From Chloroflexota bacterium (GTDB taxonomy: Bacteria; Chloroflexota; Dormibacteria; Dormibacterales; Dormibacteraceae): 51,645 nt of DNA. The DNA lies in the NCBI GenBank assembly GCA_005881025.1, contig VBFO01000044.1:29716-81360 (forward strand). The letters run 5' to 3'. Below, piece after piece: positions 13,872 through 49,564 of this stretch. The notes below the pieces were generated by a model that saw only the letters and a list, made by a program, of their open reading frames with translations, was not told the DNA's origin and did not search any database. The position numbers and the translations under genes were made by a program. How positions within the stretch are numbered: the first letter of the stretch is position 1; each line of letters begins with the position of its first letter.

Positions 13872-14348
13872 TCAGGACGATTGCATTCGGTCCGCGGCCA
13901 GCCTCACCGCGGTGACGATGTTCTGGTAGCCCGTGCACCGGCACAAATTGCCGGCCAGCGCGGCGCGGATGCTGGCGGGCGACGGATCCGGCTCTTCGCG
14001 CAGGAACGCCTCCATCGACATGAGTATCCCGGGCGTGCAGAACCCGCACTGCAGCGCGTGCGATTCGTGAAAAGCCTGCTGGAGCGTCGACAAGGTGTCG
14101 CCGTCGGGGGCCATGCCCTCCACCGTTGCAACTCGGTGCCCGTGCGCCTGCACCGCGAACATCAGGCAGGATCGCACCGGCCGCCCGTCCAGCTGCACGG
14201 TGCACGCACCGCAAACCCCGTGCTCGCAGCCCAGGTGGGTTCCGGTGAGACCCGCGACGTCGCGGATGAAGTCGGCAAGCAGCAGCCGCGGCTCGACCTC
14301 GCCTTCGGCCAGGCGACCGTTGATCTCGATCGAAATCTTGCGGGTCAA
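13872..14348 (-). CDS. Molybdenum hydroxylase 2Fe-2S subunit
   Basis: CEHGVCGACTV and CGFCTPGILMS...GNLCRCTGYQNIV cluster motifs. Confidence 0.93.
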   Translation of the reverse strand: MTRKISIEINGRLAEGEVEPRLLLADFIRDVAGLTGTHLGCEHGVCGACTVQLDGRPVRSCLMFAVQAHGHRVATVEGMAPDGDTLSTLQQAFHESHALQCGFCTPGILMSMEAFLREEPDPSPASIRAALAGNLCRCTGYQNIVTAVRLAADRMQSS

Positions 14349-15220
14349 GGGGTCGCCTTCGCTCGCTCTGCCGCTTTGATCAACGCGCGTTGGGTCATTG
14401 TCTGCAGCAGCCGGAGGCGGTATTCGGTGCTTCCGTGAAGGTCGGCGGTAGGGCGGAGGCCCCTCGTCGCCTCGACCGCGGCGGCGCGAATCGAGGCTTG
14501 GTCGACAATGGCGCCGCGAAGCATGCTCTCGGCAGACGTTGCGCGCACCGGCGCCGGGCCCGCGGACAGCAGGGCGATCGACACCGCCTCGCAGTGGCCG
14601 CCGGCGTCGAGCTTGATCGTGACGGCCGCCCCTCCCAGGGCGAAGTCTCCATGGCGGCGGGCGTACTCAACGAATGCGGCGCCGACACCAGGTTGGGGAC
14701 GAGGAACCTCGACGGCGACCACCAGCTCGTCCGGCGCCAGAGCGGTCGTGAACTCGGAGACGAAGAACTGTTCCCAGCCGATCAGCCTCGACGCTCGTTT
14801 CGCCTGGACTCGGAAGGTGGCATCGAGCGCTGCGAACGCTGCCGGAAGCTCGGCGGCGGGATCCGCATGCGCCACCGATCCGCCGACCGTGCCTCGATTG
14901 CGTATCTGGCCGTGCCCAACCCATCCGACCGCCTCGGTCAGGAGCGGCCATCCGCCGGCCACTTCCGTGGAGTGCTCCACGGCCGAGTGGCGCGTCATGG
15001 CGCCGATCACGAGCATCCCGTCATCTCGCTTGATCCCGGACAGCGAGTCGATGCGGTTGATGTCGATCAGGCGGCCCGGCCGCGCGAGCCTGAAGTTCAT
15101 CAATGGCACCAGGCTCTGGCCGCCGGCGAGCAGCTTGCATTCATCCCCGTACCTGGCAAGAAGGTCCAGCGCCTCTGCGACCGTCTGCGGGTCGTCGTAC
15201 TCGAACGGTGCAGGTTTCAT
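14345..15220 (-). CDS. Molybdenum hydroxylase FAD-binding medium subunit
   Basis: LLAGGQSLVPLMNFRLARP and IRNRGTVGGSVAHADPAAELPA. Confidence 0.93.
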   Translation of the reverse strand: MKPAPFEYDDPQTVAEALDLLARYGDECKLLAGGQSLVPLMNFRLARPGRLIDINRIDSLSGIKRDDGMLVIGAMTRHSAVEHSTEVAGGWPLLTEAVGWVGHGQIRNRGTVGGSVAHADPAAELPAAFAALDATFRVQAKRASRLIGWEQFFVSEFTTALAPDELVVAVEVPRPQPGVGAAFVEYARRHGDFALGGAAVTIKLDAGGHCEAVSIALLSAGPAPVRATSAESMLRGAIVDQASIRAAAVEATRGLRPTADLHGSTEYRLRLLQTMTQRALIKAAERAKATP

Positions 15221-17523
15221 GCTCGCGCCAGCTCCATGACACGCTGGGGATTGAGGGGCAGCTGCCGGATGTCTTGGCCCAGCGCATCCGACACGGCGTT
15301 CGCGATCGCAGCGCCGACCCCAGCCGTGCCCGCCTCGCCTGCGCCCTTCACTCCAAGCGGATTCAGCGGCGACGCCGCGTCCTCTGTGATGAGCATCTCC
15401 ACGTACGGCACCTCCTCCGCGGTGGGAAGGAGGTAGTCCATGAAGCTGGCCGCCAGTGGCTGGCCTCCTGCGTCATAGGCGAACTCCTCCAGCAGGGCGC
15501 CACCGATCCCCTGCGCGAGGCCGCCCACGATCTGTCCCTGGACCAGGGTCGGGTTGATGACCCGTCCGATGTCGTAGGCCACGGCGTATCGATGCACGTG
15601 CACCGAGCCTGTTTCGGGATCGACCTCGACAGCGGCGAAGTGGACACCGTAGGGGAACCCGAGGAGCTCACATACGAACCGGTCCTCGACCTTGAGCACG
15701 CCGTCGTGAGCGCTCAGCAGCTTTTCGAGCGAGACGGCGCGCGAGGGCGCACCCGCGACCGACACGCCGCCTGAAGTCAGGATCAGATCTTCGGGCCCTG
15801 CCTCGAGCTCCTCCGCCGCCGCGTCCAGGAGCCTGCGTCTCAACTCCCTCGACGCTTGCATGACGGCTGCGCCTCCCAGCATCGAGGCGCGGCTGCCGAA
15901 GGCTCCCATTCCTTCAGGGATGATCGCAGTATCGCCGTGCACCACCTTCACGCGTTCGTAGGGCAGGCCAAGGTGGCTGGCGCATACCTGCGCGAGGACT
16001 GTCTCCACACCCTGGCCGACAGAAGCAGTGCCCGTGAACACGAGCACGTCGCCGCTGCTGTTCAGCTCTACCCGCGCGTACTCGCGCTCCGCGGGACCCG
16101 CCTTCTCGACAAAGTACGCAGTACCAAGGCCGCGGAGGAGACCGCCGGCCGGGGCCTCGTGGCGCCAACGCTTCAGACCTTCGTAGTCGAAGCTCGCCAT
16201 CGCCTTCTCCAGCAGCAGCTCGTAGTCGCCGCTGTCATAGACGACGGGATGCTCGTCGAACAGCGTTCCCGTGTCGAACGGAAAGCTTGTCTTCGAGAGC
16301 AGGTTGCGGCGCCGGATCTCCAGCGGATCCAGGCCCAAGCGCCTGGCGGCCATGTCGACCAGGCGCTCGCGGACGAAGTTGACCTCGAAGCGTCCGGGCG
16401 ATCTGTAGGTGCCGGCCGGCGTCTTGTTGGTGACAACGCTGCGGTACTCGCCGTGATATGCAGGCCACCGATACGGGCCCGGCAGCATGGAGATGCTGAG
16501 CCCCGGAACGGTCATGCCGTGGGTGCGCACGTAGGCTCCGGTGTTGTTGATGAAGCTGTCTTTGAGTCCGAGAAAGGTGCCGTCCTTCTTGAGTGCCAGC
16601 GCGGCGCGGTGCACCTGCTCCCGCGAATGGTTGGTGGCGCGCAGGTTTTCCTCGCGGTCCTCGGCCCAAGCGACCGGCCTGCCAGTGCGGATGGCCGCCA
16701 GTGGGATGAGGTAATCCTCCGGGTAGAACTCCCCTCGCGCGCCAAAACCGCCACCCACATGGAGCTCCACCAGCCGCACCCGGCGCTCGTCACTCCAACC
16801 CAGCATGTGCAACAGGATCTTCTTGTTGACGTGGGGGATCTTGGCCGCGCCCCAAACCGTGACGGTCTCCGTCGTCTGGTCGTACTCCGCCAGCAGCCCG
16901 CGCGTCTCGAGCGGCACTGCCGCGTGGCGCTGGATGCGAAACTCATCCTCGACCACCAGGTCCGCTTGGCTGAAAGCCTCTTCGATGTCGCCCAGGTTCA
17001 GCTCCAGCCGACCCGCCACGTTGGTTCCGGTTTCCGGCTGCAAAAGGGGCGCGCCGGCGGCCACGGCTTCGTCAGGATCGAGCACCACCTCGAGCGGCTC
17101 GTAGTCGATGTGCAGCCGCTCGGCCGCATCCTCGGCTCGATAGCGAGAGTCGGCAATCACCACCGCAACCGGCTCTCCCGAGTAGCGCGCGACCCCGTCC
17201 GCGAGCGGCCTCTGGAGGTAGCGGTTGGCGCCCTCATCCTTGAACATCCGGGTCGGAATCGGCCGGCCACGGTCGGGCAGGTCCGCGGCGGTGATGACGT
17301 CGATCACGCCCGGCGCCGACTGGACCTCTCCACTGTCTATGCGCGTGAAACGTGCGTGGGCAAACGGGCTGCGCACCACAAAGGCATGGACCATCCCCGG
17401 CCGCTTGAAGTCGGCAACGAACGTTCCCTCTCCCCTGAGCAGTGGCCAGTCCTCTTTACGCAGCGGCGAAGAGCCGATGCCGTTAAGGTCCACGTGACCG
17501 ATGGTAGCGGTGGTCCCCCTCAC
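15217..17523 (-). CDS. Molybdenum hydroxylase molybdopterin-binding large subunit
   Basis: VGGGFGARGEFYPED, GTYRSPGRFEVNFVRE, catalytic GVKGAGEAGTAG; lacks CODH AYXCSFR. Confidence 0.92.
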   Translation of the reverse strand: MRGTTATIGHVDLNGIGSSPLRKEDWPLLRGEGTFVADFKRPGMVHAFVVRSPFAHARFTRIDSGEVQSAPGVIDVITAADLPDRGRPIPTRMFKDEGANRYLQRPLADGVARYSGEPVAVVIADSRYRAEDAAERLHIDYEPLEVVLDPDEAVAAGAPLLQPETGTNVAGRLELNLGDIEEAFSQADLVVEDEFRIQRHAAVPLETRGLLAEYDQTTETVTVWGAAKIPHVNKKILLHMLGWSDERRVRLVELHVGGGFGARGEFYPEDYLIPLAAIRTGRPVAWAEDREENLRATNHSREQVHRAALALKKDGTFLGLKDSFINNTGAYVRTHGMTVPGLSISMLPGPYRWPAYHGEYRSVVTNKTPAGTYRSPGRFEVNFVRERLVDMAARRLGLDPLEIRRRNLLSKTSFPFDTGTLFDEHPVVYDSGDYELLLEKAMASFDYEGLKRWRHEAPAGGLLRGLGTAYFVEKAGPAEREYARVELNSSGDVLVFTGTASVGQGVETVLAQVCASHLGLPYERVKVVHGDTAIIPEGMGAFGSRASMLGGAAVMQASRELRRRLLDAAAEELEAGPEDLILTSGGVSVAGAPSRAVSLEKLLSAHDGVLKVEDRFVCELLGFPYGVHFAAVEVDPETGSVHVHRYAVAYDIGRVINPTLVQGQIVGGLAQGIGGALLEEFAYDAGGQPLAASFMDYLLPTAEEVPYVEMLITEDAASPLNPLGVKGAGEAGTAGVGAAIANAVSDALGQDIRQLPLNPQRVMELARA

Positions 17524-18275
17524 CGCCCGTCGCCGCCGCGATAGAGGCGGAAGCGCACGAAACTGTCGTTGACATGGATGAGACTGAATCCAAGCGTGAT
17601 GCCGGTCCCTGAGTAGTGCGTCTCTTTGAGCAGGAGGTAGGCCTGTTTCGACTTGAGGCCCAGGCGCCTCACCACGTCCGCTGTGGCGGCGGCCGGCACG
17701 AGCTCCACCAGTGCGTGATCGACCGGGCCTCCCAGCAGGAGCCCGCCCATGTCGAATGGCGACTGGGCCAGCTGAAGGTCGCTCGGCGTCTCCGCGAAAA
17801 GGCCGGCTCCGATGTAGTTGATCGCCCAGATGGCAGGCTTGCCGCTGGCCACGAACAGACGGCTGATCTCGTAGATGGGCGAGCCACCCGGCAGATCCAA
17901 CGCCACCTGCACCTCGCTGGGGGGGACAGTTGTCAACCTTGAGGTGGTGATGACATCCACCGCGTAGCCCTGCTCCTCGAGCAGCCTGGAGAATCCGATC
18001 AGTCGCTGGAGGGCAACCATCGAAGGGCTGAGACGGCCGTGCACCTGCGTGCCGCGGCGCGGGCTCCGGGTCAGAACGCCGTGCTGCTGCAACGACTGAA
18101 GGGCGGAGCGAACCGTCGTGCGGCTCACTCCCAGCATGTCCGCCAGCTCGTTCTCCGGTGGCAGCCGGCTGTCCTCGAAGCGGCGCTCGAGAATTGAGTG
18201 CAGGATCGCTTCGCGGGCTTTATGGGCGAGGGATGCGCCGCCCACGGAATCTACGATCTTTTCGCGCCGGAGCAC
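17520..18275 (-). CDS. GntR/HutC (UTRA) family transcriptional regulator
   Basis: N-terminal wHTH LPPENELADMLGVSRTTVRSALQSLQQHGVLTRSPRRGTQV plus a C-terminal UTRA-like domain. Confidence 0.9.
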   Translation of the reverse strand: MLRREKIVDSVGGASLAHKAREAILHSILERRFEDSRLPPENELADMLGVSRTTVRSALQSLQQHGVLTRSPRRGTQVHGRLSPSMVALQRLIGFSRLLEEQGYAVDVITTSRLTTVPPSEVQVALDLPGGSPIYEISRLFVASGKPAIWAINYIGAGLFAETPSDLQLAQSPFDMGGLLLGGPVDHALVELVPAAATADVVRRLGLKSKQAYLLLKETHYSGTGITLGFSLIHVNDSFVRFRLYRGGDGR

Positions 18276-18346: not shown

Positions 18347-20683
18347 ATGACGTCCGGCGCTGACGGATCGATAGGCACGAGCATGCCCCGCCTGGAGGAC
18401 GGCCCGCTGCTGCGCGGGACGGCACGCTTCATCGACGACCTCAAGCCAGAAGGCCACCTGCACGTCGCATTCCTGCGCAGTCCGCTCGCTCACGCACACC
18501 TCAAGAGCATCGATCTTGGGGCCGCTCGTCGGGCGCCGGGCGTCATCGCGGCCTTCAGCGCCGCCGACCTCGAAGGTTCGTGCGAACCGATGAGGGTGCA
18601 CCTGACAACGCCCGGGGTAGTAGTGCCCGAGTGGCCAGTGCTCGCCAGGGACCGGCTGCGGTACGTGGGAGAAGGCATTGCGGCCGTCGCTGCCCGCAGC
18701 CGCTATCAGGCGGAGGACGCGGTCGAGCGGATCGAGGTCGAATACGACCCACTCCCCGCTGTGAGCACGTTCGAGGATGCGATGGCCCCAGGGACCCAGC
18801 TTGTGCATGACGCCGTGCCGCGGAACCAGTATCACTTTGGACATTTCGCGGTGGGCGACCTGGAGGCGGCTTTCGCGAATGCGGTCGCTGTCGTCGAGGG
18901 CGAGGTGCGTCATCCACGCGTCGCCGGCGCACCTATGGAGGGTCGGGGAGTGGTCGCTTCGCCCGATGGCTCCGGCGGAGTCATGGCGTGGACCTCGACT
19001 CAGGCTCCGCACGCTGTGGGCGAGGCAATCGCGGAGTGTCTGCACCTTGCGCCCGAAAAAGTGCGCGTGATCGCGTCCGACGTCGGTGGCGGTTTTGGCG
19101 TCAAGGCTCATGTGTATGTGGAAGAGATTCTTCTGGCGTGGATGGCGAGGCGCCTCGGACAAACGGTCAAGTGGGTCGAGGACAGGTCCGAGCACCTTCA
19201 GTCCGCCAACCACGCGCGCGATCAGCTCGTCAAGTTCAGCGCAGCCGTGGGCGGGGACGGACGTGTGCTCGGTCTGCGCGCGATGGTGCTGTCCAACATC
19301 GGCGCCTACGCGATCAGGCCGCATGGGCCATTGCTCGATCCCATGACCTGCGCCGGCCTCATTCCGGGGCCCTACGACATCCGCGCCTACGAGTACGACT
19401 CCTATGCGCTGGTGACCAACCGGTGCCCGGAGGGCCCGTATCGAGGGGTGGGCATGGTCACCGCGGTGCTGGCGCACGAACGGATGATGGACATGATCGC
19501 CGCCCGGCTCGGTCTGGATCCAGCCGAGGTCCGCCGGCGCAACTTCGTGCGCTCTGAGCAGATGCCCTATACGAGCTCGACCGGCCATCCGTTCGAATCG
19601 GGCAATTACACCGCGGCGCTCGAGCTGGCCCTCTCAGCCTTTGACTACAGTCGCGCGCGCGAAGAGCAGTCCAGGGCGCGGGCTGAGGGCAGGCTCGTTG
19701 GCATCGGGCTCGGCTCGTACGTCGAATTCACCGGCGCGGGCTCATCGACCTTTGTGGGTCGAGGGATGGTCGGGATCCCGGGCGTCGACAGCGCGCGGGT
19801 CTGGCTCGAGGAGGACGGGCGGGTCCACGTTCAGACCAGCTGTCCCTCGATCGGTCAGGGCGTGCACACCACTTTCGCGCAGGTGGCGGGGGCGGCGGTT
19901 GGCGTGGATCCCTCGAGCGTGGTCGTGGAGCAGACCGATACAGGCAAGGTGGCGAACGGAACGGGCTCCTTCCAGAGCCGCAGCTCGGTCGTGGCTGCGA
20001 CTTCGGCCCACCGCGCCGCAAAGCAGCTCCGCGCTGAGATCCTCGAAGCCGCCGCCTGGCGCCTTGACCATCCACCTGAGCGCCTGTCGATCGGCGCCGG
20101 CAATGTCACGATCGATGGGCGGCCGTCGGGCGTCACCCTCGCGCAGCTCGCAACAGCCGACCCCGCCGACAACGGCGGCCACAGGCTCGACGTGTCGGTG
20201 ACGTATGACCCGGTGCAGGCCTCACATCCCTACGGCACCCACGCCTGCATGATCGAGATCGATTCCGGCAGCGGCGCGGTCGAGGTTCAGCAGTTTGTCG
20301 TGGCGGAGGACTGCGGAACCGTGATCAACCCTGCCATCGTCGATGGGCAGGTCGTCGGCGGCGTGGCCCAGGGTCTGGGGGCGGTCCTGCTCGAGGAGGT
20401 GAGCTACGGCTCTGACGCCCAGCTTCTAAGCGGCAGCTTCATGGATTACCTTCTGCCGACCGCGGGCGAGATGCCGGCCGTCGAGGTGAGGCACCTGGTC
20501 ACGCCGTCAACCGTTCACGAGCTGGGAACCAAGGGTATCGGCGAAGGCGGCGTCATCGGCTCGACCGCGGCGCTCGCGAACGCCATCGCCGACGCGCTGT
20601 CGGTGGACGGCGCCACGCTCCCGTACACCCCGGATCGGATCCTCTCGCTGATCGAGTCGGCGACCGAGCCCGGCTTTAAGTAG
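18347..20683 (+). CDS. Xanthine dehydrogenase-family molybdopterin-binding subunit, unaccompanied by small subunits
   Basis: VGGGFGVKAHVYVEE, GPYRGVGMVTAVLAHERMMD, GTKGIGEGGVIG; strong SD GGAGGGGGG before ATG. Confidence 0.92.
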   Translation: MTSGADGSIGTSMPRLEDGPLLRGTARFIDDLKPEGHLHVAFLRSPLAHAHLKSIDLGAARRAPGVIAAFSAADLEGSCEPMRVHLTTPGVVVPEWPVLARDRLRYVGEGIAAVAARSRYQAEDAVERIEVEYDPLPAVSTFEDAMAPGTQLVHDAVPRNQYHFGHFAVGDLEAAFANAVAVVEGEVRHPRVAGAPMEGRGVVASPDGSGGVMAWTSTQAPHAVGEAIAECLHLAPEKVRVIASDVGGGFGVKAHVYVEEILLAWMARRLGQTVKWVEDRSEHLQSANHARDQLVKFSAAVGGDGRVLGLRAMVLSNIGAYAIRPHGPLLDPMTCAGLIPGPYDIRAYEYDSYALVTNRCPEGPYRGVGMVTAVLAHERMMDMIAARLGLDPAEVRRRNFVRSEQMPYTSSTGHPFESGNYTAALELALSAFDYSRAREEQSRARAEGRLVGIGLGSYVEFTGAGSSTFVGRGMVGIPGVDSARVWLEEDGRVHVQTSCPSIGQGVHTTFAQVAGAAVGVDPSSVVVEQTDTGKVANGTGSFQSRSSVVAATSAHRAAKQLRAEILEAAAWRLDHPPERLSIGAGNVTIDGRPSGVTLAQLATADPADNGGHRLDVSVTYDPVQASHPYGTHACMIEIDSGSGAVEVQQFVVAEDCGTVINPAIVDGQVVGGVAQGLGAVLLEEVSYGSDAQLLSGSFMDYLLPTAGEMPAVEVRHLVTPSTVHELGTKGIGEGGVIGSTAALANAIADALSVDGATLPYTPDRILSLIESATEPGFK

Positions 20684-21563
20684 TTCGAATCCCCGTGATC
20701 GATCCGCGCACTGCTCGCGGGTCGCGCGCGTTCCATGTCCCCTGTTCGACCGAGGCTAGGAACCGCTCCACGACCCCGTCGAAGATTTCGGGCTCCTCGA
20801 GGTTGACTGTATGGCCGGTTTGCGGCAGCACGACCAGGCCGGAGGTCGAGATCGTGCGCTTGAGCATCAAGGACGGCTCCAGGCTCCCCTCGTCCTCGTC
20901 GCCCGCCACGATCAGGACCGGATTCCGGATGGCACGGAGTTCGTCCATCAGTGCATACAGAGAAGGACGGGCAGCCTGGACGCCGCGCATCGTCAGCGCC
21001 GCGCCACGGGGATCATGGCCGGCCAGGCCGGCGGCGAAGCGGGCCCATGCCTCTGCGTTCTTGTTCTGAAGCTGCACGCGCGCGGGTCCAACCGCGTAGC
21101 CGTCGGCGACCCACGCTGATCCTTTGGCTTCGAACGCATCGGCGATCGCGTTGCTCTCGCGGCGGAATTGCTCCTGCTTCTCGGGCTGAGAGCCGTAGCC
21201 CACGCCCGCGATGACAGCGGAGCGAACGCGCTGGGGGTGACGTAGTACCAGATGCAGCACGGTGAATCCGCCCATCGAAAGGCCGATGCAGTGCGCCGAG
21301 TCCACAGCGGCCGCGTCGAGAACCGTGACCGCGTCCTCGACCGCACGGCCTTGCGAGTAGGCCGACTGTTCCGTGGGCACGTCCGACGGTGGATAGCCAC
21401 GGGCCGCGTACGTGATGCACTGATGACTTCGCGACAGGTGCATGACCTGCGGCTCCCAGCTTCGATGGTCGCCGGCGAACTCGTGGATGAACAGGATCGG
21501 AATGCCCGCACCGGAGACTTCGTAGTGCAGCTCGATTCCGTCCGAGCTGCGAGCCTTCGGCAC
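20676..21563 (-). CDS. Alpha/beta hydrolase (PcaD-like)
   Basis: GLSMGGFTVLHL nucleophile elbow, LIVAGDEDEG, PQTGHTVNLEEPE; GTG at 21563. Confidence 0.87.
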   Translation of the reverse strand: MPKARSSDGIELHYEVSGAGIPILFIHEFAGDHRSWEPQVMHLSRSHQCITYAARGYPPSDVPTEQSAYSQGRAVEDAVTVLDAAAVDSAHCIGLSMGGFTVLHLVLRHPQRVRSAVIAGVGYGSQPEKQEQFRRESNAIADAFEAKGSAWVADGYAVGPARVQLQNKNAEAWARFAAGLAGHDPRGAALTMRGVQAARPSLYALMDELRAIRNPVLIVAGDEDEGSLEPSLMLKRTISTSGLVVLPQTGHTVNLEEPEIFDGVVERFLASVEQGTWNARDPRAVRGSITGIRTT

Positions 21564-21584: not shown

Positions 21585-23075
21585 ATGATGTGGGGCATGG
21601 CACAGCCGCGAAGCTGGGAGGCATGGAGCCGGGCGGCCTGGCGGCGCCATCTCCCCGACGTCGCCGACCCGGACGCATTTGTCGCCGCCATCGGCCACGG
21701 CACCATCCACGGCCTCGCGCACGCGACCGCTCACGCCACGCCGGATCGCCCCGCGATCCGAATCGGCGGCGGAGAGGTCACCCACGGTCAGCTCGATTCG
21801 CGGGCGGCCCGCTTTGCTCGCTGGGTGGGCAACCAGATCGCGCCCGGGGACCGCGTCTTGATCGCCGCTCCGCTGGGAGTCGACTGGGTCGCGTGCTACC
21901 TCGGCACCCTGCGAGTCGGTGGCGTGGCCGTCCTCGTGAACCCCGCCTACACCAGGGCCGAGCTCGACCAGCTCGTGGTCGCCGCGCAGCCGGTGGAGAT
22001 CCTCACCCAGCTCGATGAGTCGATGTTCGCTGCAGACCCCGCGCCCTGGGTCGAGAGCGCCGGTCCCGACACCACGGCGGTGCTCGCCTTCACCTCCGGC
22101 ACGACGGGCCTCCCGAAGGGCGTGCCGCTGACGCACAGACAGCTCCTGACGTCCATCCGCTCGGCCATGAGTGCTTGGCGGTGGAGGGCGCGTGACGTGC
22201 TCGTCCACGCTTTGCCGCTGTTCCACCAGCATGGGCTTGGCGGTGTTCATGCCACGCTCATCGCCGGCTCGCGCTTGAGCTGCCTCACGCGCTTCGATCC
22301 CGAAGCGCTGCTGGCCGAGGTGGTTCGCGCCAAAGCCACCGTCCTCTTCGCGGTTCCGACCATGTACCAGCGGCTCCCAGACACTCCATACGAGCTCAAC
22401 CGGCTCCGGCTGTCGGTGAGCGGTTCGGCCGCGCTGGGTCGGGCGGCGGCCGAGAGGGCGGAGCACGTGCTGGGGCGGGCCCCGCTGGTCCGGTATGGAG
22501 CCACCGAAAGCGGCCTCGACACATCCCACGTTTACACCGACCTTCGTCATCCCGACCGCGCCCGCACGATCGGCCTCCCCTTACCGGGGATCGAGCTTCG
22601 CCTCGCAGCGGGCGACGGCGAGATCCAGCTTCGCGGGCCGCAGGTTTTCGGCGGCTACTGGGGTGACGGGGCGTCGAATCAGTCAGCGTTCACCGAGGAC
22701 GGCTGGTTCCGCACCGGCGACATCGGTCGCGTGGACGACAGCACCGGTGAAGTGATCATCGAGGGGCGCAGCAAGGAGGTGATCATCACGGGCGGCCTCA
22801 ACGTGTACCCGCGGGAGGTGGAGATCGCACTGGAGAGTCACCCGGGCGTGGCCGAGGCGGTGGTCGCGCCTTTGGCGAGCGAAGAATGGGGCGAGCAGGT
22901 CACCGCGTGGGTCGTGATGGCTCCCGGCGCCACCTTCGACGAGCGAGTGCTCATCAACCACTCGCGAACGCTTTTGGCCGCTTACAAATGTCCGAAGCGG
23001 GTTTTCGAAATGGACACGCTGCCGCGCAACCACGTTGGCAAGATCGACCGGAGAAAGCTCCAGCCGATTCCTTAG
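21585..23075 (+). CDS. AMP-dependent acyl-CoA synthetase/ligase
   Basis: LAFTSGTTGLPKGVPLTHRQ, YGATESGLDTS, GWFRTGDIGRVD, GGLNVYPREVE; start may be 21597. Confidence 0.9.
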   Translation: MMWGMAQPRSWEAWSRAAWRRHLPDVADPDAFVAAIGHGTIHGLAHATAHATPDRPAIRIGGGEVTHGQLDSRAARFARWVGNQIAPGDRVLIAAPLGVDWVACYLGTLRVGGVAVLVNPAYTRAELDQLVVAAQPVEILTQLDESMFAADPAPWVESAGPDTTAVLAFTSGTTGLPKGVPLTHRQLLTSIRSAMSAWRWRARDVLVHALPLFHQHGLGGVHATLIAGSRLSCLTRFDPEALLAEVVRAKATVLFAVPTMYQRLPDTPYELNRLRLSVSGSAALGRAAAERAEHVLGRAPLVRYGATESGLDTSHVYTDLRHPDRARTIGLPLPGIELRLAAGDGEIQLRGPQVFGGYWGDGASNQSAFTEDGWFRTGDIGRVDDSTGEVIIEGRSKEVIITGGLNVYPREVEIALESHPGVAEAVVAPLASEEWGEQVTAWVVMAPGATFDERVLINHSRTLLAAYKCPKRVFEMDTLPRNHVGKIDRRKLQPIP

Positions 23076-23869
23076 ATGTCCATCAGTGCTTTGCGCTGGG
23101 CACCGTCGATTGGTATGTGCGCACCGTTGATGAACGCCGCCCGCGGAGAAGCCAGGAAGACGACCAGTGACGCCACCTCCTGCGGCTCGCAGATGCGGTG
23201 AAAAGGGATCGACGATATGGCCAGCTCGTGCGCGCGAGCCTGGTCGACCTTCTTGTCGCGGGCAAATGCCTTCTCCAGGCCGTCCCAGCGGTCGGTGTTC
23301 ACCGGCCCCGGGTTGACGGTGTTGATGCGAACGCCGTAGCGCCCGTACTGCTCGGCCACAGATGAGGCGAAGTTGATGTCAGCGGCGTTGGCGACGCCCG
23401 CCGTCATCTCCCAGTAGCTCGGCTTGAGGCCGTCATTGCCGACCACGAGCACGATCGAGCCCTCTCCCCGCTCGCGCATGTGCTCGATGACCGCCCGGAC
23501 GGAGCGAACGTAGCCCATGAACTTCAGGTTCAGGCTCGACATCCATTGGTCCTCGGTCAGGTCTTCGAGCAGACCGCCCGGTGAGCTGCCCGCGCATGTG
23601 ACCAGGATGTCAATCCGGCCGAACTTCTTAAGCGCGGCGTTGACGCACCGTCCGACGTCTTCGCTCTTGCTCATGTCACCCGCGAGCGGCACGACCTCGC
23701 GCTGTGTCATGGCGGCAATCTCTTTGGCGGCGACTTCGAGCGGCTCTTGCGTCCGCGCGGTCATGACGAGGTTCGCACCTTCCTTCGCCAACTCCTCGGC
23801 GACGGCGCGGCCGATGCCCTTGCTGGCACCGGTCACGAGCGCGATCTTGCCTGTGAGCTGCAGATCCAT
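23072..23869 (-). CDS. SDR family oxidoreductase with atypical active site
   Basis: TGASKGIGRAVAEEL nucleotide motif and INTVNPGPVNT; no canonical YxxxK. Confidence 0.88.
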   Translation of the reverse strand: MDLQLTGKIALVTGASKGIGRAVAEELAKEGANLVMTARTQEPLEVAAKEIAAMTQREVVPLAGDMSKSEDVGRCVNAALKKFGRIDILVTCAGSSPGGLLEDLTEDQWMSSLNLKFMGYVRSVRAVIEHMRERGEGSIVLVVGNDGLKPSYWEMTAGVANAADINFASSVAEQYGRYGVRINTVNPGPVNTDRWDGLEKAFARDKKVDQARAHELAISSIPFHRICEPQEVASLVVFLASPRAAFINGAHIPIDGAQRKALMDI

Positions 23870-24498
23870 TACCCCTCCTCTGGCTTGCTCGCGTGATCCT
23901 GGACGATTCGCGCCAGGATCGGACTTGGGTGAAAACCATTGCATGGATTCAGATCCTGTGGGCATGCGGAGATGGCCGCCACCAAGCCGTCCAGCAGCGC
24001 TCGCATCACGAACTTGTCGCCGGGCTTGCTGGTCGGAATCTCGTTCCCGAACGTGCGGTCCGCCCTTATGGGGGCGTTCTGAAAGATGTTGATCACGTCG
24101 GGGATCTGCCACTCCTCGTAACCCCAAGGCTTCAGCGCCTCGAGGAAGTTGCTGCGGCAGCTGCGATGGTCTTCGACGCCGTAATCGAGCCTGTAGCGGC
24201 GCGCGTCGCACATCGACGTGATCAGGTCGTGCATGCCGACGTCGTCTTGGATCACCTCGTAGATGTCTCGACGCCAGTTCGTCTGCAGGCGATCACCAAC
24301 GCCCAGGTTGAGCCGCAGTGTGGTCGAACGCGTATGCGTGGCCGACAGCCACTCCGTCCGGTTGTCCTCCCGGATCGAGATGAAGTCGGCGACCTGCTGC
24401 CCCTCAACGTCCACGATCTCGAGCAGAGCGCCCCTCGGCACGCGGAACGCCCGGCCGTGGCCTGCCGGCACCAGCACCTCTTCGATGAGCTTCATCAT
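23869..24498 (-). CDS. DUF1989 / urea carboxylase-associated family protein (paralog A)
   Basis: VDVEGQQVADFISI, GMHDLITSMCDARRY, CPQDLNPCNGF; overlaps its neighbours by a few nt. Confidence 0.83.
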   Translation of the reverse strand: MMKLIEEVLVPAGHGRAFRVPRGALLEIVDVEGQQVADFISIREDNRTEWLSATHTRSTTLRLNLGVGDRLQTNWRRDIYEVIQDDVGMHDLITSMCDARRYRLDYGVEDHRSCRSNFLEALKPWGYEEWQIPDVINIFQNAPIRADRTFGNEIPTSKPGDKFVMRALLDGLVAAISACPQDLNPCNGFHPSPILARIVQDHASKPEEG

Positions 24499-25151
24499 TC
24501 GGCTTCGAAAACCTCGACCCGAAGCGGTGTGCACTTGAAGGCGTTGCACGGAACCATCACATCCAGCGGACAGTTGGAAAGCCCGACCAGAACGTCCATC
24601 TCGGCCCGCATCTCGACGTAGTCGCCGGGCTCGTTGACCGGCTCCTTGATCCACCACCGTCCGGCGGCGCAGTCATGGACGAAGTTCATGTTCAGGTCGA
24701 ATGTGTCCGGCAGATCTTCTGACGCGATGCCGTATTGCGCCACGGCCTTGGCGATGATCTCCTGGCACCCATCCCGCGGTCCAAACCCGTTCGATTCATA
24801 GAGGTAGCGGTTGCACATGCGGTGATGCGTGTCGTGGACACCCTTGATCCGGGCCGTCTCCTTCACGATCGTCATCAGCGGCCGGCAAAGCGTCGACATC
24901 AGCGTGTCGCCTTCGGTCAGATGGTCGCGAGGGATGTAGTCGCCCTGGACCTTCATCGGGTAGCGGGTGCGTGAATAGGACGTCGAGAGCTTTTCGCGGA
25001 GGTTGCCCATGTTGAACACCGCCACGTCGCACACCTGCTTGCCCTCGATGTCGGTGATGCGGATGTGCTGTCCATGCGTGAGCTCCACTGCCCTGCCCGA
25101 CTTTGGCGGCATGACCTCATCCAGCAGCTTCTTCTTGTGCGCGATCCCCAT
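24495..25151 (-). CDS. DUF1989 / urea carboxylase-associated family protein (paralog B)
   Basis: ITDIEGKQVCDVAVFN, GVHDTHHRMCNRYLYE, CPLDVMVPCNAFKCTPLRV; ATG 25151 preceded by SD GAGGAGGA. Confidence 0.85.
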   Translation of the reverse strand: MGIAHKKKLLDEVMPPKSGRAVELTHGQHIRITDIEGKQVCDVAVFNMGNLREKLSTSYSRTRYPMKVQGDYIPRDHLTEGDTLMSTLCRPLMTIVKETARIKGVHDTHHRMCNRYLYESNGFGPRDGCQEIIAKAVAQYGIASEDLPDTFDLNMNFVHDCAAGRWWIKEPVNEPGDYVEMRAEMDVLVGLSNCPLDVMVPCNAFKCTPLRVEVFEAE

Positions 25152-25171: not shown

Positions 25172-25951
25172 TCACGAGGCTTTAGGCACCTCGCCATCAC
25201 CGGTGCTGCGGCCCAGGAATACCTCGGCCAGATCCTTGCGGGCAAGCAGATCTCCGGCGGCCGATGAGATCCTGATCACGCCGCCCGCCATCACATACGC
25301 CCAGTCGGAGATGGCAAGCGCCGCCTGCGCCTTCTGCTCCACGATCAGCACCGCCGCGCCAGACTCGCCCAGCCGGCTCACGTGCTCTTCGAGCACGACA
25401 CGCGAGAGGTCGGCGCTGAGGTTCGAGGTCGGCTCGTCGAGCACCAGCAGACTAGGCTCCAGCATCAGGACGCGAGCCATCGCCAGCATCTTTCGTTCGC
25501 CTCCGCTCAGCTTGCTTGCGGTGCGATTCAACATTCGTTTCAGCGCGGGGAAGACTTCCATGACCTTTTCGGTGCGCTCCCCAATTTCGTTCCGCTTCAG
25601 CAGGTATCCACCCATGGCGAGGTTATCCGCCACTGTCAGCGTGTCGAAGACATCGTTCACCTGGGGCACGTATCCAAGTCCCCGCCGCGCGAGGTGATTG
25701 GCCCGCATGTTGGTGACGTCCTCGCCTGCCAGCCGCACCTTGCCGGCAAGCGCCGGGATCATGCCCGCCACCGCCTTCAGGAATGTGCTCTTCCCCGCTC
25801 CATTCGGGCCGACGATGGTGACGATCTCGCCCAGCCCGGCGCGTGCGGAGGCCTCGTGAACGATCGGCGCGCCACCATATCCGGCGCTCAGGCCATCCAC
25901 CAGGAGGTGCGGCATGGGCCGACCGGCCTCGTCAGCCGATGAGGTAGGCAT
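25172..25951 (-). CDS. Branched-chain amino acid-type ABC transporter ATP-binding protein (LivF-like)
   Basis: GPNGAGKST Walker A, LSGGERKMLAMARVLM, LLVLDEPTSNLS. Confidence 0.9.
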   Translation of the reverse strand: MPTSSADEAGRPMPHLLVDGLSAGYGGAPIVHEASARAGLGEIVTIVGPNGAGKSTFLKAVAGMIPALAGKVRLAGEDVTNMRANHLARRGLGYVPQVNDVFDTLTVADNLAMGGYLLKRNEIGERTEKVMEVFPALKRMLNRTASKLSGGERKMLAMARVLMLEPSLLVLDEPTSNLSADLSRVVLEEHVSRLGESGAAVLIVEQKAQAALAISDWAYVMAGGVIRISSAAGDLLARKDLAEVFLGRSTGDGEVPKAS

Positions 25952-26702
25952 CGAGAACCTCCTGACGGGTCCTGACATCGGCCATCGCACCTTCCGCGAT
26001 GACCCTGCCCTGTGCCATCACCACGACGGGGTCGCAAACGCGCTCCACGACCGACAGCTCGTGCTCAACCATGACCATCGACAAGCCCTCATCGCGCAGG
26101 TCCATGAGGTAGCGCTCGATCTCGCGGGCCAATGTCGGATTCACGCCCGCGAACGGCTCGTCGAGCAGCAGCATCTTCGGCCTGGCCATCAGCGCGCGCA
26201 TGATCTCGAGCAGGCGCTTCTGTCCTCCGCTCAGGTTGCCCGCCAGCTCGTCCTCCTTGGGCGCCATCGAGAACCGGTCGAGCACAGCGCGCGCCTGGCC
26301 GACCAGAACGTCTTCGCCGGCGCCCCAGTAAAGGCGGCCGAGCTCGGCTCCCCACAGCGATTCCCCCCGCTGCGCCGGGGCGGCCACGAGCAGGTTCTCG
26401 AGCACTGTCAGCCGTGCGAACTCGGCTGACAGTTGAAAGGTCCGGACCATGCCGCGCCGCGCGATCCGGTGCGGGGGCAGGCCCGTCACGTCAGCACCGT
26501 CGTACTCGATCCTTCCCGCGGAAGGCTTGATCGCGCCCGCGACGACCCCCATCAGCGTGGACTTGCCGGCGCCGTTCGGTCCGATCAGTCCCGTGATGCG
26601 ACCTCGGAGCGCGGTGAAGGTCGCGCCGTCCACCGCCCTGACACCGCCAAAGTCGCGACGCACGTCGCTCACGGTCAGGAGGGGATCTGGCGTCGCGGCC
26701 AC
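25932..26702 (-). CDS. Branched-chain amino acid-type ABC transporter ATP-binding protein (LivG-like)
   Basis: GPNGAGKSTLMGVVAG, LSGGQKRLLEIMRALM, LLLDEPFAGVNP. Confidence 0.9.
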   Translation of the reverse strand: MAATPDPLLTVSDVRRDFGGVRAVDGATFTALRGRITGLIGPNGAGKSTLMGVVAGAIKPSAGRIEYDGADVTGLPPHRIARRGMVRTFQLSAEFARLTVLENLLVAAPAQRGESLWGAELGRLYWGAGEDVLVGQARAVLDRFSMAPKEDELAGNLSGGQKRLLEIMRALMARPKMLLLDEPFAGVNPTLAREIERYLMDLRDEGLSMVMVEHELSVVERVCDPVVVMAQGRVIAEGAMADVRTRQEVLDAYLIG

Positions 26703-27716
26703 CTATTCCCCCTTCCCGGCACTGGCGATGGCCGCTCGTGGCGTGAAGCGTCCCGGACGTTCGGGGAACAATCCCTGGGGCCGAAACCAAAGGAACACCA
26801 GGATCAACAGCCCGACCGCGACCCACTGCAGAGCATCAACCAGTCCGCTGAAGAGAACCACGTGGCGGCCGAACAGGTTGAAATCCTGCGGCAGGAACCG
26901 GGTCGCCTCGAGGAATCCAACCGGCACCAAGAGCGCGCCGACCACCGCGCCCCAGTTGTTCGCCGAGCCCCCGACGATGATCGCGGCCAGGAACACGAAC
27001 GTCTCGGGGTACAGCCAGGAACCCGGTGACCACGCCTGAATGAACTCGACGAAGACCGCGCCGCTGATGCCGGCGATCACACCGCCAACGACGAAGATCA
27101 GAAGCCGCAGGGCGGTGATGTTCTTGCCCAGCGCCGCCGCGGCGCGATCGTTGTCGCGCATCGCGCGCAGCGTGCGCCCAAGCGGCGAGTTGGTGATGCC
27201 GCGGACAAACAAGAAGGTGAGGGCGGTCAAAAGGCCGGCCCAGATCGCGTAGACCCACTGGTACTCGAGCGGCGGCAGGCCAAGCTGGTCGAACAGAGGC
27301 TGCGGGACGTTCGCAAGGCCGGCCGGCCCGTTGACGAGTCCCGTCGCGTTGGTGGCGGTGAGGGTCGCGATGAGAGAAAGCACCAGCATCACCATCGCCT
27401 GGTAGTCGCTTCGCAAACGCCGAAGGCTGATCAACCCGACTACCAGCGACAACACGCCCGAGGCCGCGCCCGCGGCAAGGATGGGCAGGGGAAACGGCCA
27501 GCTGGCCCCGAAGAGGTAGTGCTGGAAGTTGCCGGGGAAATCAGGACCCAGCGACACCACGGCAGCGGTGTAAGCGCCGACCGCGACGAAAACGATGTAG
27601 GCGAAGTTGATGATGCCGGCGACGCCGAATTGGAGATTCAGGCCGAGCACGCCCATGACATCGATGAACAGATAGATGAGCAGTGTCGAGAGGTAGAACT
27701 GCATGGCGTCGCTCAT
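26703..27716 (-). CDS. Branched-chain amino acid-type ABC permease (LivM-like)
   Basis: LGLNLQFGVAGIINFAYIVFVAVGAY, SPLGRTLRAMRDND, IIVGGSANNWGAVVGA. Confidence 0.9.
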   Translation of the reverse strand: MSDAMQFYLSTLLIYLFIDVMGVLGLNLQFGVAGIINFAYIVFVAVGAYTAAVVSLGPDFPGNFQHYLFGASWPFPLPILAAGAASGVLSLVVGLISLRRLRSDYQAMVMLVLSLIATLTATNATGLVNGPAGLANVPQPLFDQLGLPPLEYQWVYAIWAGLLTALTFLFVRGITNSPLGRTLRAMRDNDRAAAALGKNITALRLLIFVVGGVIAGISGAVFVEFIQAWSPGSWLYPETFVFLAAIIVGGSANNWGAVVGALLVPVGFLEATRFLPQDFNLFGRHVVLFSGLVDALQWVAVGLLILVFLWFRPQGLFPERPGRFTPRAAIASAGKGE

Positions 27717-28600
27717 GCCGCCACCTCTTTGCCCGATGCGACCTCGGAGAGGATGCCTTGAGGCCGCACGAGCAGGACGACGATCAGGATCGCGAACGCC
27801 ACGACGTCCTTGTAGGAAGGGTTGATGACGGAGGCCGCGACCTCGCTCGCCAACCCGATCGTGACCGCGCCAAGCATCGCTCCGTAAGGCTGGCCGATGC
27901 CACCGAGCACAGCGGCGGCGATGATCGGGACCAGGAAGTTGGCGCCGGTGACCTCGCTGAAGGTCGCCGTGTTGAGCACCAGCACGACGCCGGCGATCCC
28001 GCACAGTGCGCCTGACAGCAACCATGCGACGTCGATCACGCGGTCGGTGGCGACGCCGCAGCTCCGGGCCAGGCCGGGATTGGTCGCGGTGGCCCGCATG
28101 GCCTTGCCGAGTCGGGTCCGCGTCGACAGCAGATGCACAGACACCATCGCCACCACCGCGATGCCCATGATCGCGAGCTGGCTCCCGGTGAGGATCATGC
28201 CCGCGAACGTGTACGAAGCGCTTGCCGAAACCTCGTAGCTGAAGAACGTGGGCCTGAACACCGCCAGCAGGACGTTCTGGATGATCAGGCTCATCGCGAT
28301 CGTCACGATGATCATCCCGAAGAGCCTCGTTCCCCTTCGCACGAACTGGAAGTACACGAACCTGTTGAGGAGCATCGAGAAGACTGCCCCGAACAGGGCT
28401 GCCATCAACAGCGAAAGCCAGATGTCGACCCCTGCGTGATTGGCGATGTAAGCCGCGAACGCGGACGCGGTCATGACGTCGCCGTAAGCGAGATTCAGGA
28501 TGTTCGTGACGCTGAACTGCAGCGTGAAACCAACCGCGGCGATGGCGAGGATCGAGGCTGTGATGAGCCCGAACCCGATCGCCGGTACCAGCTGGCTCAT
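27713..28600 (-). CDS. Branched-chain amino acid-type ABC permease (LivH-like)
   Basis: VTNILNLAYGDVMTASAFAAY, RLGKAMRATATNPGLARSCGV. Confidence 0.9.
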   Translation of the reverse strand: MSQLVPAIGFGLITASILAIAAVGFTLQFSVTNILNLAYGDVMTASAFAAYIANHAGVDIWLSLLMAALFGAVFSMLLNRFVYFQFVRRGTRLFGMIIVTIAMSLIIQNVLLAVFRPTFFSYEVSASASYTFAGMILTGSQLAIMGIAVVAMVSVHLLSTRTRLGKAMRATATNPGLARSCGVATDRVIDVAWLLSGALCGIAGVVLVLNTATFSEVTGANFLVPIIAAAVLGGIGQPYGAMLGAVTIGLASEVAASVINPSYKDVVAFAILIVVLLVRPQGILSEVASGKEVAA

Positions 28601-28642: not shown

Positions 28643-29971
28643 CTAGGCGTACTTTGCGATGTCGGCGGCGCTGACGATGTCGAGCTGCGGGTTCGAGCCA
28701 TCGGTAGCGTATCCGGCGACCTGAAAGGCGCCGGACGAGTTGTGGTACTTGTCGAGCACGATCGGACCACCAGCTCCCACGTAGTGGATCTTCTTGCCCG
28801 CAGCAAGCGCGTCCTTGCCCTCCTGGTATGAGTGAACCTCGGTGGCTCCGGGTGAGTCGGCGACCACGTTTGCGATCTGTTGATTGAAGAAACTGGGGTC
28901 GGGCGTGTTGGCCATGATCATGGCCAGGGCCATGGTCACTATCGCGTCATAGTCGGTCTGCGTATATGGATCCTGTGCCCACTGGTCGGGCTGCGGGATC
29001 TCCGAGGCGGAAGCCAGCAGCTCGGTGTTGAAAACCTTCCATGCCGGTCCCTGTGATGGAGCGTACGGCTGGGCCGCGGCGTAGATCTGAGCCAGGTTGG
29101 CCTTGCCGATTGCACCGCCCACCGCCTTGATCCAGGCCGGCTGAATTGTCGGTTCGGTGCCGATGACGGGGATCAGGCCGTGCAGCTGCTGCAGCTGGCT
29201 CAGGTAGGCGGCGTCGGTCTGCGGGTCGGCCTCGGTGAAGATCACATCCGGGTTGGCCGCGACGGCAGCCTGAACCTCGCTGCGATACGAGCTCTGGTCG
29301 AGGGCCAGCGACTGGTTCAGCACGATCTGCCCACCCAGCTTCTTGAACGTGCTGACCAACGTCGGCACATTGCTCTGCGAGCTGAGGTCGCTGCCGAAAA
29401 CCGCCGCTCCCCTCCGGTAGCCCTTCCGGTAGGCGTAGATCGCCATCGCGATGCCGGCGGCATCGTCGGGCGGAGTGAGGCGCCAGAAGTAATCGTTGCT
29501 GTTCTTGTCGAAGGCGGCCTGTCCGGTGTCGGCGAACATCGGGATGTGCGCCCGGTTGATGATCGGCACCGTCGCCTGGGCCTCGTCTGAGCTCGGCCCG
29601 TTCATGCCCACGAGGTTGGAGGTGGTGGCGATCATCTTCTGTGCGGCGGGCACCGCGTCAGCCGGATCGCCGCGGGTGTCGACGGTGATGCATTGAACCT
29701 GGTGCCCGAGCACCCCGCCCGCTTTGTTTATGAGGTGGGCGGCAACTATGCAGCCCGCCTGCATCTCCGGCCCGAAGCTGGCGTCAGGACCGGTGAATGG
29801 GTTGAAGCTGGCGAAGGTGAGCGTGCCGGTGTACGTCTTCGGCGTCGCGGATTGCGTGGTCGAGCCGCAGGCGGCCACCGTCACCACGAATGCCACCGCC
29901 ACTGCGACTCGCCCGTTCAAAGGCGCGAGCCACCAAGTCCCTTGAGCCCGATGCGGTAATTTGTCCGACAA
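28643..29971 (-). CDS. Branched-chain amino acid-type ABC substrate-binding lipoprotein (LivK-like); start uncertain
   Basis: Lipobox VAACGS; periplasmic binding fold NPFTGPDASFGPEMQAGCIVAAHLINKAGGVLGHQV; the called TTG start is only ~8 nt from the predicted TSS. Confidence 0.87.
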   Translation of the reverse strand: MSDKLPHRAQGTWWLAPLNGRVAVAVAFVVTVAACGSTTQSATPKTYTGTLTFASFNPFTGPDASFGPEMQAGCIVAAHLINKAGGVLGHQVQCITVDTRGDPADAVPAAQKMIATTSNLVGMNGPSSDEAQATVPIINRAHIPMFADTGQAAFDKNSNDYFWRLTPPDDAAGIAMAIYAYRKGYRRGAAVFGSDLSSQSNVPTLVSTFKKLGGQIVLNQSLALDQSSYRSEVQAAVAANPDVIFTEADPQTDAAYLSQLQQLHGLIPVIGTEPTIQPAWIKAVGGAIGKANLAQIYAAAQPYAPSQGPAWKVFNTELLASASEIPQPDQWAQDPYTQTDYDAIVTMALAMIMANTPDPSFFNQQIANVVADSPGATEVHSYQEGKDALAAGKKIHYVGAGGPIVLDKYHNSSGAFQVAGYATDGSNPQLDIVSAADIAKYA

Positions 29972-30047: not shown

Positions 30048-30442
30048 GTGTCGACGATCCGAAGGCTGCGGATCCCTGATCACCTGCCCGAGCCCATCAG
30101 CCACTGCACCGATGCGGTCGTGGCGGACGGCCGGATCTGGATCTCGGGAATGCTCGCCCTCGACAAAGAGGGGACCCTGGTCGGTGGTGACGACGTCGTG
30201 GCGCAAGCAGAGCGCGTTCACGAGAACATCAAAGCAGCGCTCGACAAGGGGGCGCGGGTTTTGAGGACGTGGTCAAGGTGACCGTCTACTTGCGCCGGAT
30301 CGGAGATCGGGCAGCGGTCAACGAGGTGCGGAAGAAATTCTTCGGCCAACGCCGGCCCACCAGCACGCTCGTGGAGATCTCGGGCCTTGTGATCCCGGAG
30401 GCGCTGATCAAGATCGACGCGGTGGCGCGCCGGCCGAGCTAG
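30048..30442 (+). pseudogene. RidA family protein, frame-disrupted (1-nt deletion relative to intact frame)
   Basis: Frame 1 ...HENIKAALDKG then ...GAGFEDVVKVTVYLRRIGDRAAVNEVRKKFFGQRRPTSTLVEISGLVIPEALIKIDAVARRPS* in another frame; join at the G5 run 30248-30252. Confidence 0.8.
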
Positions 30443-31689
30443 GCGGTGTGGGGCCTGTGCGCCTCTCTAAAACCGCCACGCAATCGGTAGATGGCGTGCT
30501 CGATCAGCCTGCGCCTCGGTGTCCGCCAGCAGCGCAACGAGTGATGCGACTCGTGCATCAAGCACAGGTTGCACGAGGTGCAGGCAACCGGTCCTCGGCG
30601 ACCGGCGGCGAGTCTGACCACAAGGTCGGGCTCGCGGATGAATGGGCGCGCCATGGCGATGAAGTCCGCGTCGCCGCGCCCGAGAATCGATTCCATGGTC
30701 GCCGGAAGCCGCATCCCCCCGACCAGGATGATCGGCACCGTCACCTGCTTGCGAAGCTCACGAGCCAGGCCAAGAAAGTAGGCCTCCGGGCGCGCAGGCG
30801 ACAGGAGCCGGTGCAGCAACAGATCCCGCAGGGCGCGACTCGGACCGACCGCGACATATTCTTTGGCCGAGTCGCTCGGAAGGCTCATCGCGTTGCATGA
30901 AACCTCAAACGCGTCAGCGCCGGCGGCGGCCAGCACAGCACCTCGCCGCACGCCTTCGGACAGCTGCATCCCTCCCTCGATCGCATCCTGGAGCCCGAGC
31001 TTGACGGTGACGGCCATGCTCGCGGGCACTTCGCGGCGCACCGCCTTCAGGACCTCTACGAGGAGCCTGTCCCGGGCCTCGGGCGTGCCGCCCCAGGCAT
31101 CAGCCCGATGGTTGGTCACGGGAGACGAGAACTCGCTGATCAGGTAGCCGTTTGCCGCGTGGATGTGCACCCCGTCGAAGCCCGCCTGCACAGCGCGCCG
31201 GGCGCCACCGGCAAAGGCCTCGATCGCCTCCACTATCTCGGGTTCACCCGCCGCCTCCACCATGCGGCCGGTCAAAGCGTTGGGGATCGGCGACGGCGCC
31301 AGCGGACGGTTGTCGGGAACCCTCGACTGGCTGCCTGCGTGCGCGATCTGCGCGAACACCTTGCCGCCGTGCCGGTGCACGGCGCCCGTCAGCCGGGTGA
31401 GCCCGGCCACCATCGAGTCGGAGTGGATCCCGACCTGGCGCGAAGCGTAGCGGCCGCGCGGATGGCAGAACATGTGGCCGCTCAGGATCAGGCCGACCCT
31501 GTTCCTGGCCAGCTCCGCGTAGATCGCAACCAGCTGGTCGGTGATCTCACCGCCTTCGCCCGCGGCCGTCTCGGAGGTGCCGGCACGCACGATCCGATTG
31601 GCGATCTCTACCGGGCCGATCCGACCCGGCCGCCACAGCCCACCCGCTTCGAGATTTGATATGGCTGAAACGTTAGCGACCCGGCTCAC
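30439..31689 (-). CDS. Old yellow enzyme family NADH:flavin oxidoreductase with C-terminal Cys cluster
   Basis: HIHAANGYLISEFSSPVTNHRADAWGG, FAQIAHAGSQS, CTSCNLCLMHESHHSLRC. Confidence 0.9.
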   Translation of the reverse strand: MSRVANVSAISNLEAGGLWRPGRIGPVEIANRIVRAGTSETAAGEGGEITDQLVAIYAELARNRVGLILSGHMFCHPRGRYASRQVGIHSDSMVAGLTRLTGAVHRHGGKVFAQIAHAGSQSRVPDNRPLAPSPIPNALTGRMVEAAGEPEIVEAIEAFAGGARRAVQAGFDGVHIHAANGYLISEFSSPVTNHRADAWGGTPEARDRLLVEVLKAVRREVPASMAVTVKLGLQDAIEGGMQLSEGVRRGAVLAAAGADAFEVSCNAMSLPSDSAKEYVAVGPSRALRDLLLHRLLSPARPEAYFLGLARELRKQVTVPIILVGGMRLPATMESILGRGDADFIAMARPFIREPDLVVRLAAGRRGPVACTSCNLCLMHESHHSLRCWRTPRRRLIEHAIYRLRGGFREAHRPHTA

Positions 31690-31743: not shown

Positions 31744-31761
31744 GCACCCGCTTTGGGGTGC
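31744..31761 (+). promoter_or_regulatory. Leader hairpin upstream of the BMP gene
   Basis: GCACCC-GCTTTG-GGGTGC perfect 6-bp stem just downstream of the predicted TSS. Confidence 0.4.
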
Positions 31762-31785
31762 GCGTTTGGAGGGAGGCTTTCGAGC

Positions 31786-32877: not shown

Positions 32878-32891
32878 CACCGAGCCAGAAT

Positions 32892-36436: not shown

Positions 36437-36452
36437 CCCGGAGGAGGACGAG

Positions 36453-40010: not shown

Positions 40011-40067
40011 CCTATCCGGCCTTAAACTTCGCTCGTCCGAACCGGCGCTCACTCAAGGGGGATCCGT

Positions 40068-41944: not shown

Positions 41945-41945
41945 T

Positions 41946-45758: not shown

Positions 45759-45838
45759 GTGTGGCGGAGCCCGGAGGGCCGCCGCGTATTTCGCGGCATC
45801 GGCGGCCGGAGCCAAGGAAAGGGTGGCGCGGCTAGGAG

Positions 45839-45938
45839 CGCATCGCTAGATGCGTAACGACGCAGCGCCGGGCCCCTTGACGACGGCTTCAGCGGCGAAG
45901 CCGCCCGGCCGTCTAGGTCGCGAAGACGCAAGGCGTCT
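45839..45938. terminator. Three consecutive hairpins between the XDH operon 3' end and the deaminase gene
   Basis: CGCATC-GCTA-GATGCG; CGGCTTC-AGCGGC-GAAGCCG; AGACGC-AAG-GCGTCT, all perfect stems. Confidence 0.45.
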
Positions 45939-45948
45939 CCGGGCGCCG

Positions 45949-49561: not shown

Positions 49562-49564
49562 CGG

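Follow-up and report, generated by a model that had tools for sequence, protein, structure and literature searches.

A Liv-type importer operon of Dormibacteraceae encodes two DUF1989 proteins outside the carboxyguanidine deiminase clade

In this work, we examine a 51,645-nucleotide stretch of contig VBFO01000044.1 (hereafter the window) from a soil bacterium of the Chloroflexota, represented by a 2.6-Mb metagenome-assembled genome (MAG) that is 87% complete. The window carries an operon in which a five-part Liv-type importer is followed by two genes for DUF1989 proteins, P0001 (DUF1989 a) and P0002 (DUF1989 b), and one for an SDR oxidoreductase (Table 1). By sequence, the two proteins are members of two separate branches of DUF1989, neither of them carboxyguanidine deiminase (Cgd, formed by CgdA and CgdB), and the operon probably serves to scavenge nitrogen from a compound other than guanidine by an uncharacterised route. 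We put at about even the chance of a more specific reading, in which the operon is an accessory catabolic module whose DUF1989 products are two distinct Cys3-site enzymes, not a heteromer, that cleave C–N bonds in an imported nitrogen compound or its intermediates.

An initial annotation made from the DNA alone had described overlapping, diverged DUF1989 paralogues in one operon with a Liv importer and an SDR gene, and our analysis bears this out. Both proteins belong to PF09347 (P0001 with 128 bits and P0002 with 156 bits, curated cut-off 27 bits), are 29% identical to each other and carry the HD...C and CN(A/G)F motifs attributed to them (HDTHHRMC and PCNAF in P0001, HDLITSMC and PCNGF in P0002). 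The genes are tightly packed in the order LivKHMGF, DUF1989 a, DUF1989 b and SDR: the stop codon of DUF1989 a overlaps the start of DUF1989 b by one base (TGATG), the SDR start codon at 23869 overlaps the stop of DUF1989 b by one base (TAATG), and the LivF stop lies 20 bases upstream of P0001, with a GAGGAGG-like ribosome-binding site in the gap. The importer has the full set of a Liv/HAAT system within one operon, namely a substrate-binding protein, two permeases and two ATPases, and branched-chain amino acid and urea (Urt) importers are likewise made of parts K, H, M, G and F; Liv and Urt models give it similar scores, all far below cut-off. A third DUF1989 gene of the source genome, of the long single type, lies on another contig (C127).

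Table 1 Genes of the DUF1989 operon and its surroundings in the window
Feature	Position	Strand	Remarks
Amidohydro_2 decarboxylase-like protein	12878..13870	-	
Mo-hydroxylase CoxL-CoxM-CoxS set	13872..17523	-	15217-17523, 14345-15220, 13872-14348
GntR/UTRA regulator	17520..18275	-	kept in both relatives
Mo-hydroxylase large subunit	18347..20683	+	nearest solved relative quinoline 2-oxidoreductase; kept in both relatives
Alpha/beta hydrolase	20676..21563	-	start approximate
SDR oxidoreductase	23072..23869	-	Pfam adh_short_C2
P0002, DUF1989 protein b, 208 aa	23869..24495	-	Pfam 156 bits
P0001, DUF1989 protein a, 218 aa	24495..25151	-	Pfam 128 bits
LivF-type ATP-binding subunit	25172..25990	-	NCBIfam UrtE 178 bits / LivF 163 bits
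LivG-type ATP-binding subunit	25932..26702	-	NCBIfam LivG 201 bits
LivM-type permease	26703..27716	-	NCBIfam LivM 90 bits; start by alignment to relative locus L043
LivH-type permease	27713..28600	-	LivH clade recurs next to DUF1989 genes
LivK-type substrate-binding protein, Peripla_BP_6	28643..29971	-	
OYE-family flavoenzyme	30439..31689	-	Pfam Oxidored_FMN 204 bits; C-terminal Cys cluster CTSCNLC...C
Cyclase-family (PF04199) hydrolase	37981..38733	+	divergent LivK neighbour in relatives, displaced here

CgdA and CgdB (UAAP1 and UAAP2) are also encoded by tandem DUF1989 genes after an ABC importer, share the CN(G/A)F motif with the window pair, and have been defined as the descendants of the node in a PF09347 tree at which the two subunits meet (PMC11410670). 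We built a tree of 84 DUF1989 proteins, with only three UAAP1/UAAP2 reference pairs and several long branches, in which UAAP1 and UAAP2 form one clade (support 99/88) that contains neither P0001 nor P0002. P0001 pairs with a Rhodococcus plasmid protein (100/98), and the two join the long, 3DI4-like single proteins, whereas P0002 lies with a protein of genome G405 (100/99) in the opposite half. Approximately unbiased (AU) tests, based on those three reference pairs, reject a position inside the Cgd clade for P0001 (p = 4 × 10−4) and for P0002 (p = 2 × 10−15), and both proteins score below the TIGR03424/TIGR03425 cut-offs (100 and 117 bits against 285; 68 and 83 against 206). Thus, the predicted distinctness of the pair from CgdA/CgdB holds in the phylogeny as well as in the NCBIfam scores. 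We also considered the pair as tandem duplicates, that is, mutual sisters, and rejected this (AU test, p = 3 × 10−5).

The two proteins further differ from CgdA/CgdB in their metal sites. In the TMAO demethylase TDM, zinc is assigned to three cysteines, with a histidine and an aspartate nearby (PMC12560246). Across the positions compared (D198, C263, H276, C279, C343 and D346, numbered as in PMC12560246), the residue columns show that P0002 keeps all six (D37, C96, H110, C113, C178 and D181) and P0001 five (D42, C113, C129, C194 and D197), with Arg126 at the position of TDM H276 and the 3ORU histidine. In the UAAP1 rows most of these residues are gone, in keeping with a description of CgdAB as including an inactive cognate (PMC11271267), and Cgd has its Cys3 site in one subunit. 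As both window proteins keep three cysteines and two aspartates, they are unlike such an active-plus-inactive pair, with no subunit that has lost its metal ligands, and each is predicted to bind metal. Structure models of the two reach pLDDT values of 71 and 75, with the metal-site loops weakest and of low confidence, and in Foldseek searches the only hits above noise for either model were the DUF1989 structures 3ORU, 3SIY and 3DI4. These solved single DUF1989 proteins resemble the window pair in fold and Cys3 site at 26–33% identity, and 3ORU-type relatives occur in single-gene catabolic loci, where their partners are amidase, polysaccharide deacetylase and arginase-family genes.

The operon also occurs in two further MAGs, which represent other genera of the same family, G001 (VBEG01000026, Chloroflexi CF_20) and G030 (PLJM01000017, Dormibacterota palsa_842), and a scan of contigs for further carriers found none beyond these two. 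Their counterparts are 87–88% identical to DUF1989 a and 83–84% identical to DUF1989 b. Against the two relatives, dN is 0.09–0.13 and dS 0.75–1.5 for a and b together (dN/dS of roughly 0.1 for P0001), so both genes are under purifying selection. Most of the 42 genomes of the order lack the pair, which is present in only 3, and the operon is therefore an accessory module. In both relatives (loci L043 and L044) the gene order is LivKHMGF, DUF1989 a, SDR and DUF1989 b.

This arrangement bears on the proposal of the initial annotation that P0001 and P0002 form one heteromeric, CgdAB-like deiminase acting on another substrate. The genes are adjacent and translationally overlapping in the window, protein b accompanies protein a in all three members of the order that encode the latter, and paired DUF1989 proteins have arisen repeatedly (for example UAAP1/UAAP2, a Palleronia a/b pair and a pair in G264), all of which would suit a heteromer. 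Yet the SDR gene separates a from b in both relatives, the Cys3 site is complete in both proteins, unlike in UAAP1, and a and b come from distant branches by AU test and not from a local duplication. Moreover, close relatives stand alone: a 63% homologue of DUF1989 b is solitary beside the same importer in G405, a genome of a different family, and DUF1989 a has its nearest outside homologue (50%) in Rhodococcus, likewise single in the stretch examined. We therefore find the heteromer unsupported and consider it rather unlikely, preferring two distinct enzymes.

What recurs is the importer. It had been taken to be of another class than the transporters of guanidine operons, and indeed two of the three true Cgd operons that we examined carry a three-gene 'putative urea ABC transporter' instead of five Liv-type parts. 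We defined the LivH clade of the window at an E value ≤ 1 × 10−98 and searched 400 Chloroflexota-level genomes; 10 contain it, and in six of these (G000, G001, G030, G405, G075 and G028) a DUF1989 gene adjoins it. The Liv-linked DUF1989 proteins of G405, G075 and G028 are other, single proteins at three unrelated loci, and the linked LivH is in each the best of 9 to 19 LivH-like matches. Setting aside the operon's own group leaves seven genomes, and adjacency in three of these has a chance probability of about 3 × 10−5 under a simple uniform model. A somewhat more distant Liv set stands with DUF1989 in G350. Gene neighbourhood thus ties DUF1989 to this importer, whereas the DUF1989 lineage involved varies from locus to locus and a partner is dispensable. 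This recurrent link, together with the placement of the pair outside Cgd, is why we regard the operon as probably a nitrogen-scavenging route that has yet to be characterised. As a separate observation, the DUF1989-linked Liv locus of G028 has a MIP-family channel gene between LivK and LivH (L145, 9746-10591).

For the substrate of the two enzymes, some other C–N compound is plausible, and the neighbouring genes suggest catabolism of an N-heterocycle. Genes for the cyclase-family protein, the OYE-family flavoenzyme, the alpha/beta hydrolase, the large subunit of a Mo-hydroxylase and the GntR regulator are kept close to the operon in both relatives, with the alpha/beta hydrolase directly after DUF1989 b in G030 and the next same-strand gene in G001, and a second Mo-hydroxylase is also close by in G030. 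In the window, the large subunit of the CoxL-CoxM-CoxS set is nearest to 6-hydroxypseudooxynicotine dehydrogenase; for the cyclase-family protein, a search at 1 × 10−10 returned no solved relative. Elsewhere, Mo-hydroxylases lie near DUF1989 in Palleronia and Aminobacter, and OYE genes next to it in Streptomyces and Nocardia. In such a pathway, LivKHMGF would take up the nitrogen compound, the Mo-hydroxylases would hydroxylate the heterocycle next to the ring nitrogen, and reduction followed by hydrolytic ring opening would come next. Each DUF1989 enzyme might then cleave a C–N bond with metal-activated water, hydrolysing an imine, amidine or enamine centre and releasing ammonia or an amine. 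The reaction type, the order of steps and the substrate are our inference. The heterocycle part is tentative because the Mo-hydroxylase, OYE and hydrolase genes form separate transcription units, some of them divergent, and were not seen in the stretches searched around the other Liv-linked loci (no Mo-hydroxylase in those of G405, G075 and G028). A full Chloroflexota importer-coupled pathway, with two metal-intact DUF1989 enzymes of independent origin making successive C–N cleavages in a Mo-hydroxylated N-heterocycle, is a reading that we hold at considerably less than even odds; if true, it would be a reaction class not known for DUF1989. The literature searched gave no reaction for either of the two branches, and for DUF1989 as a whole only carboxyguanidine deiminase and the TMAO demethylase domain.

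To the right of the operon, positions 31753-51580 of the window hold a purine catabolism island with a BMP-type nucleoside ABC importer, a CN hydrolase, an NCS1 permease, three Amidohydro_1/3 proteins, an M20 protein, a Mo-hydroxylase, uricase, HIUase and OHCU decarboxylase; an allantoinase-like protein is among its products. The operon could then serve purine breakdown, its DUF1989 enzymes releasing ammonia from a ureido intermediate, and PucR, BMP-type ABC and NCS1 genes do lie near DUF1989 in Streptomyces, Nocardia and Aminobacter. However, in both relatives the uricase orthologue and the DUF1989 operon are on different contigs, so the purine neighbourhood is particular to the source genome; we rejected the island as a functional partner and give this explanation a low probability.

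Slightly less probable still is an N-demethylation route like that of TMAO demethylase (NF053776), whose TDM bears a metal-binding DUF1989 domain. The nearest NCBIfam model of P0002 is this enzyme (124 bits, more than with UAAP2), P0002 has the same Asp/Cys/His/Cys/Cys/Asp set of metal residues and an OYE-family enzyme is encoded nearby, but the score is far under the cut-off of 1100 bits and P0002 does not group firmly with TDM, a long branch, in the tree. TMAO demethylase has its DUF1989 fused to a GcvT-like domain and a further N-terminal DUF1989-like domain, whereas the window proteins, of 208 and 218 residues, consist of DUF1989 only and score far below the family cut-off; no formaldehyde-handling genes were recognised.

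The guanidine pathway was sought directly. As the initial annotation had stated, neither urea/guanidine carboxylase nor allophanate hydrolase is found in the window, and the same holds for the source genome: the best TIGR02712 matches reach at most 516 bits against a cut-off of 1304 and are acyl-CoA-carboxylase-like pieces, and the best AtzF match reaches 175 bits against 511. Because the source assembly is incomplete, we searched three further genomes, two with the same operon (G001, 96% complete, and G030, 93%) and G405 (92%), and both enzymes were again below cut-off, giving none in four genomes that are 87–96% complete. The Rfam search of the window matched nothing, so no guanidine riboswitch is recognised there. 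A diverged carboxyguanidine deiminase whose carboxylase is missing from an 87% complete MAG, to which the UAAP2 matches (100–117 bits) might point, is accordingly largely refuted and very improbable, given the same absence in three more genomes of 92–96% completeness, the AU tests, the unreached 285-bit cut-off and the want of a guanidine riboswitch in the window. The idea that a missing carboxylase is unusual finds no support: most DUF1989 loci that we examined also lack one, and DUF1989 without carboxylase is common rather than exceptional.

The window operon is a variant within a known, largely uncharacterised family. The annotated plasmid loci with DUF1989 that we examined comprise three true Cgd operons and one TDM; the remainder have DUF1989 with amidase and polysaccharide deacetylase, some with OYE, or with M20 and cupin, arginase-family, PAAT importer or creatininase-cluster genes. 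The P0001 homologue of Rhodococcus CX-1 sits in a creatininase/isochorismatase/NCS1 cluster, and a link to carbendazim through that plasmid was dropped, as nothing in the review ties the homologue to this compound. Arginase-family genes stand beside DUF1989 in at least seven Chloroflexota loci, the neighbours in Chloroflexota and Proteobacteria being found at L135, L139, L141, L143, L144, L081, L085, L079/L080 and L090-L093, and this association with ureohydrolases suggests guanidino-compound catabolism as a common theme. Automatic annotation calls many DUF1989 members 'urea carboxylase-associated', a label that often misleads, as is seen from the window locus and from the Liv and arginase settings that recur elsewhere. 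These loci offer concrete operons for substrate discovery through ligand screening of the binding protein.

Several further loci came to light. A plasmid of Palleronia sp. LCG004 carries a tandem DUF1989 pair (L047, 11965-13241) whose second member lacks nearly all metal residues, accompanied by a PAAT importer, a Mo-hydroxylase and one more DUF1989; an active/inactive pair of DUF1989 proteins thus appears to have arisen a second time, outside Cgd. In genome G264, two DUF1989 genes that closely resemble each other lie side by side with five arginase-family matches around them (L081, 9526-10672), the second gene missing the last metal-site stretch, possibly by a frameshift. On a Klebsiella pneumoniae plasmid (L097), genes for a PAAT importer, an M20 hydrolase, DUF1989 and a cupin lie between IS elements; this observation is accompanied by about 60 plasmid records from Klebsiella and 74 from Pantoea, and the locus probably represents a mobile catabolic module whose annotation goes no further than urea carboxylase-associated. 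Finally, positions 1408-4209 of the window encode a large glycoside hydrolase family 2 protein with an exo-beta-D-glucosaminidase Ig domain.
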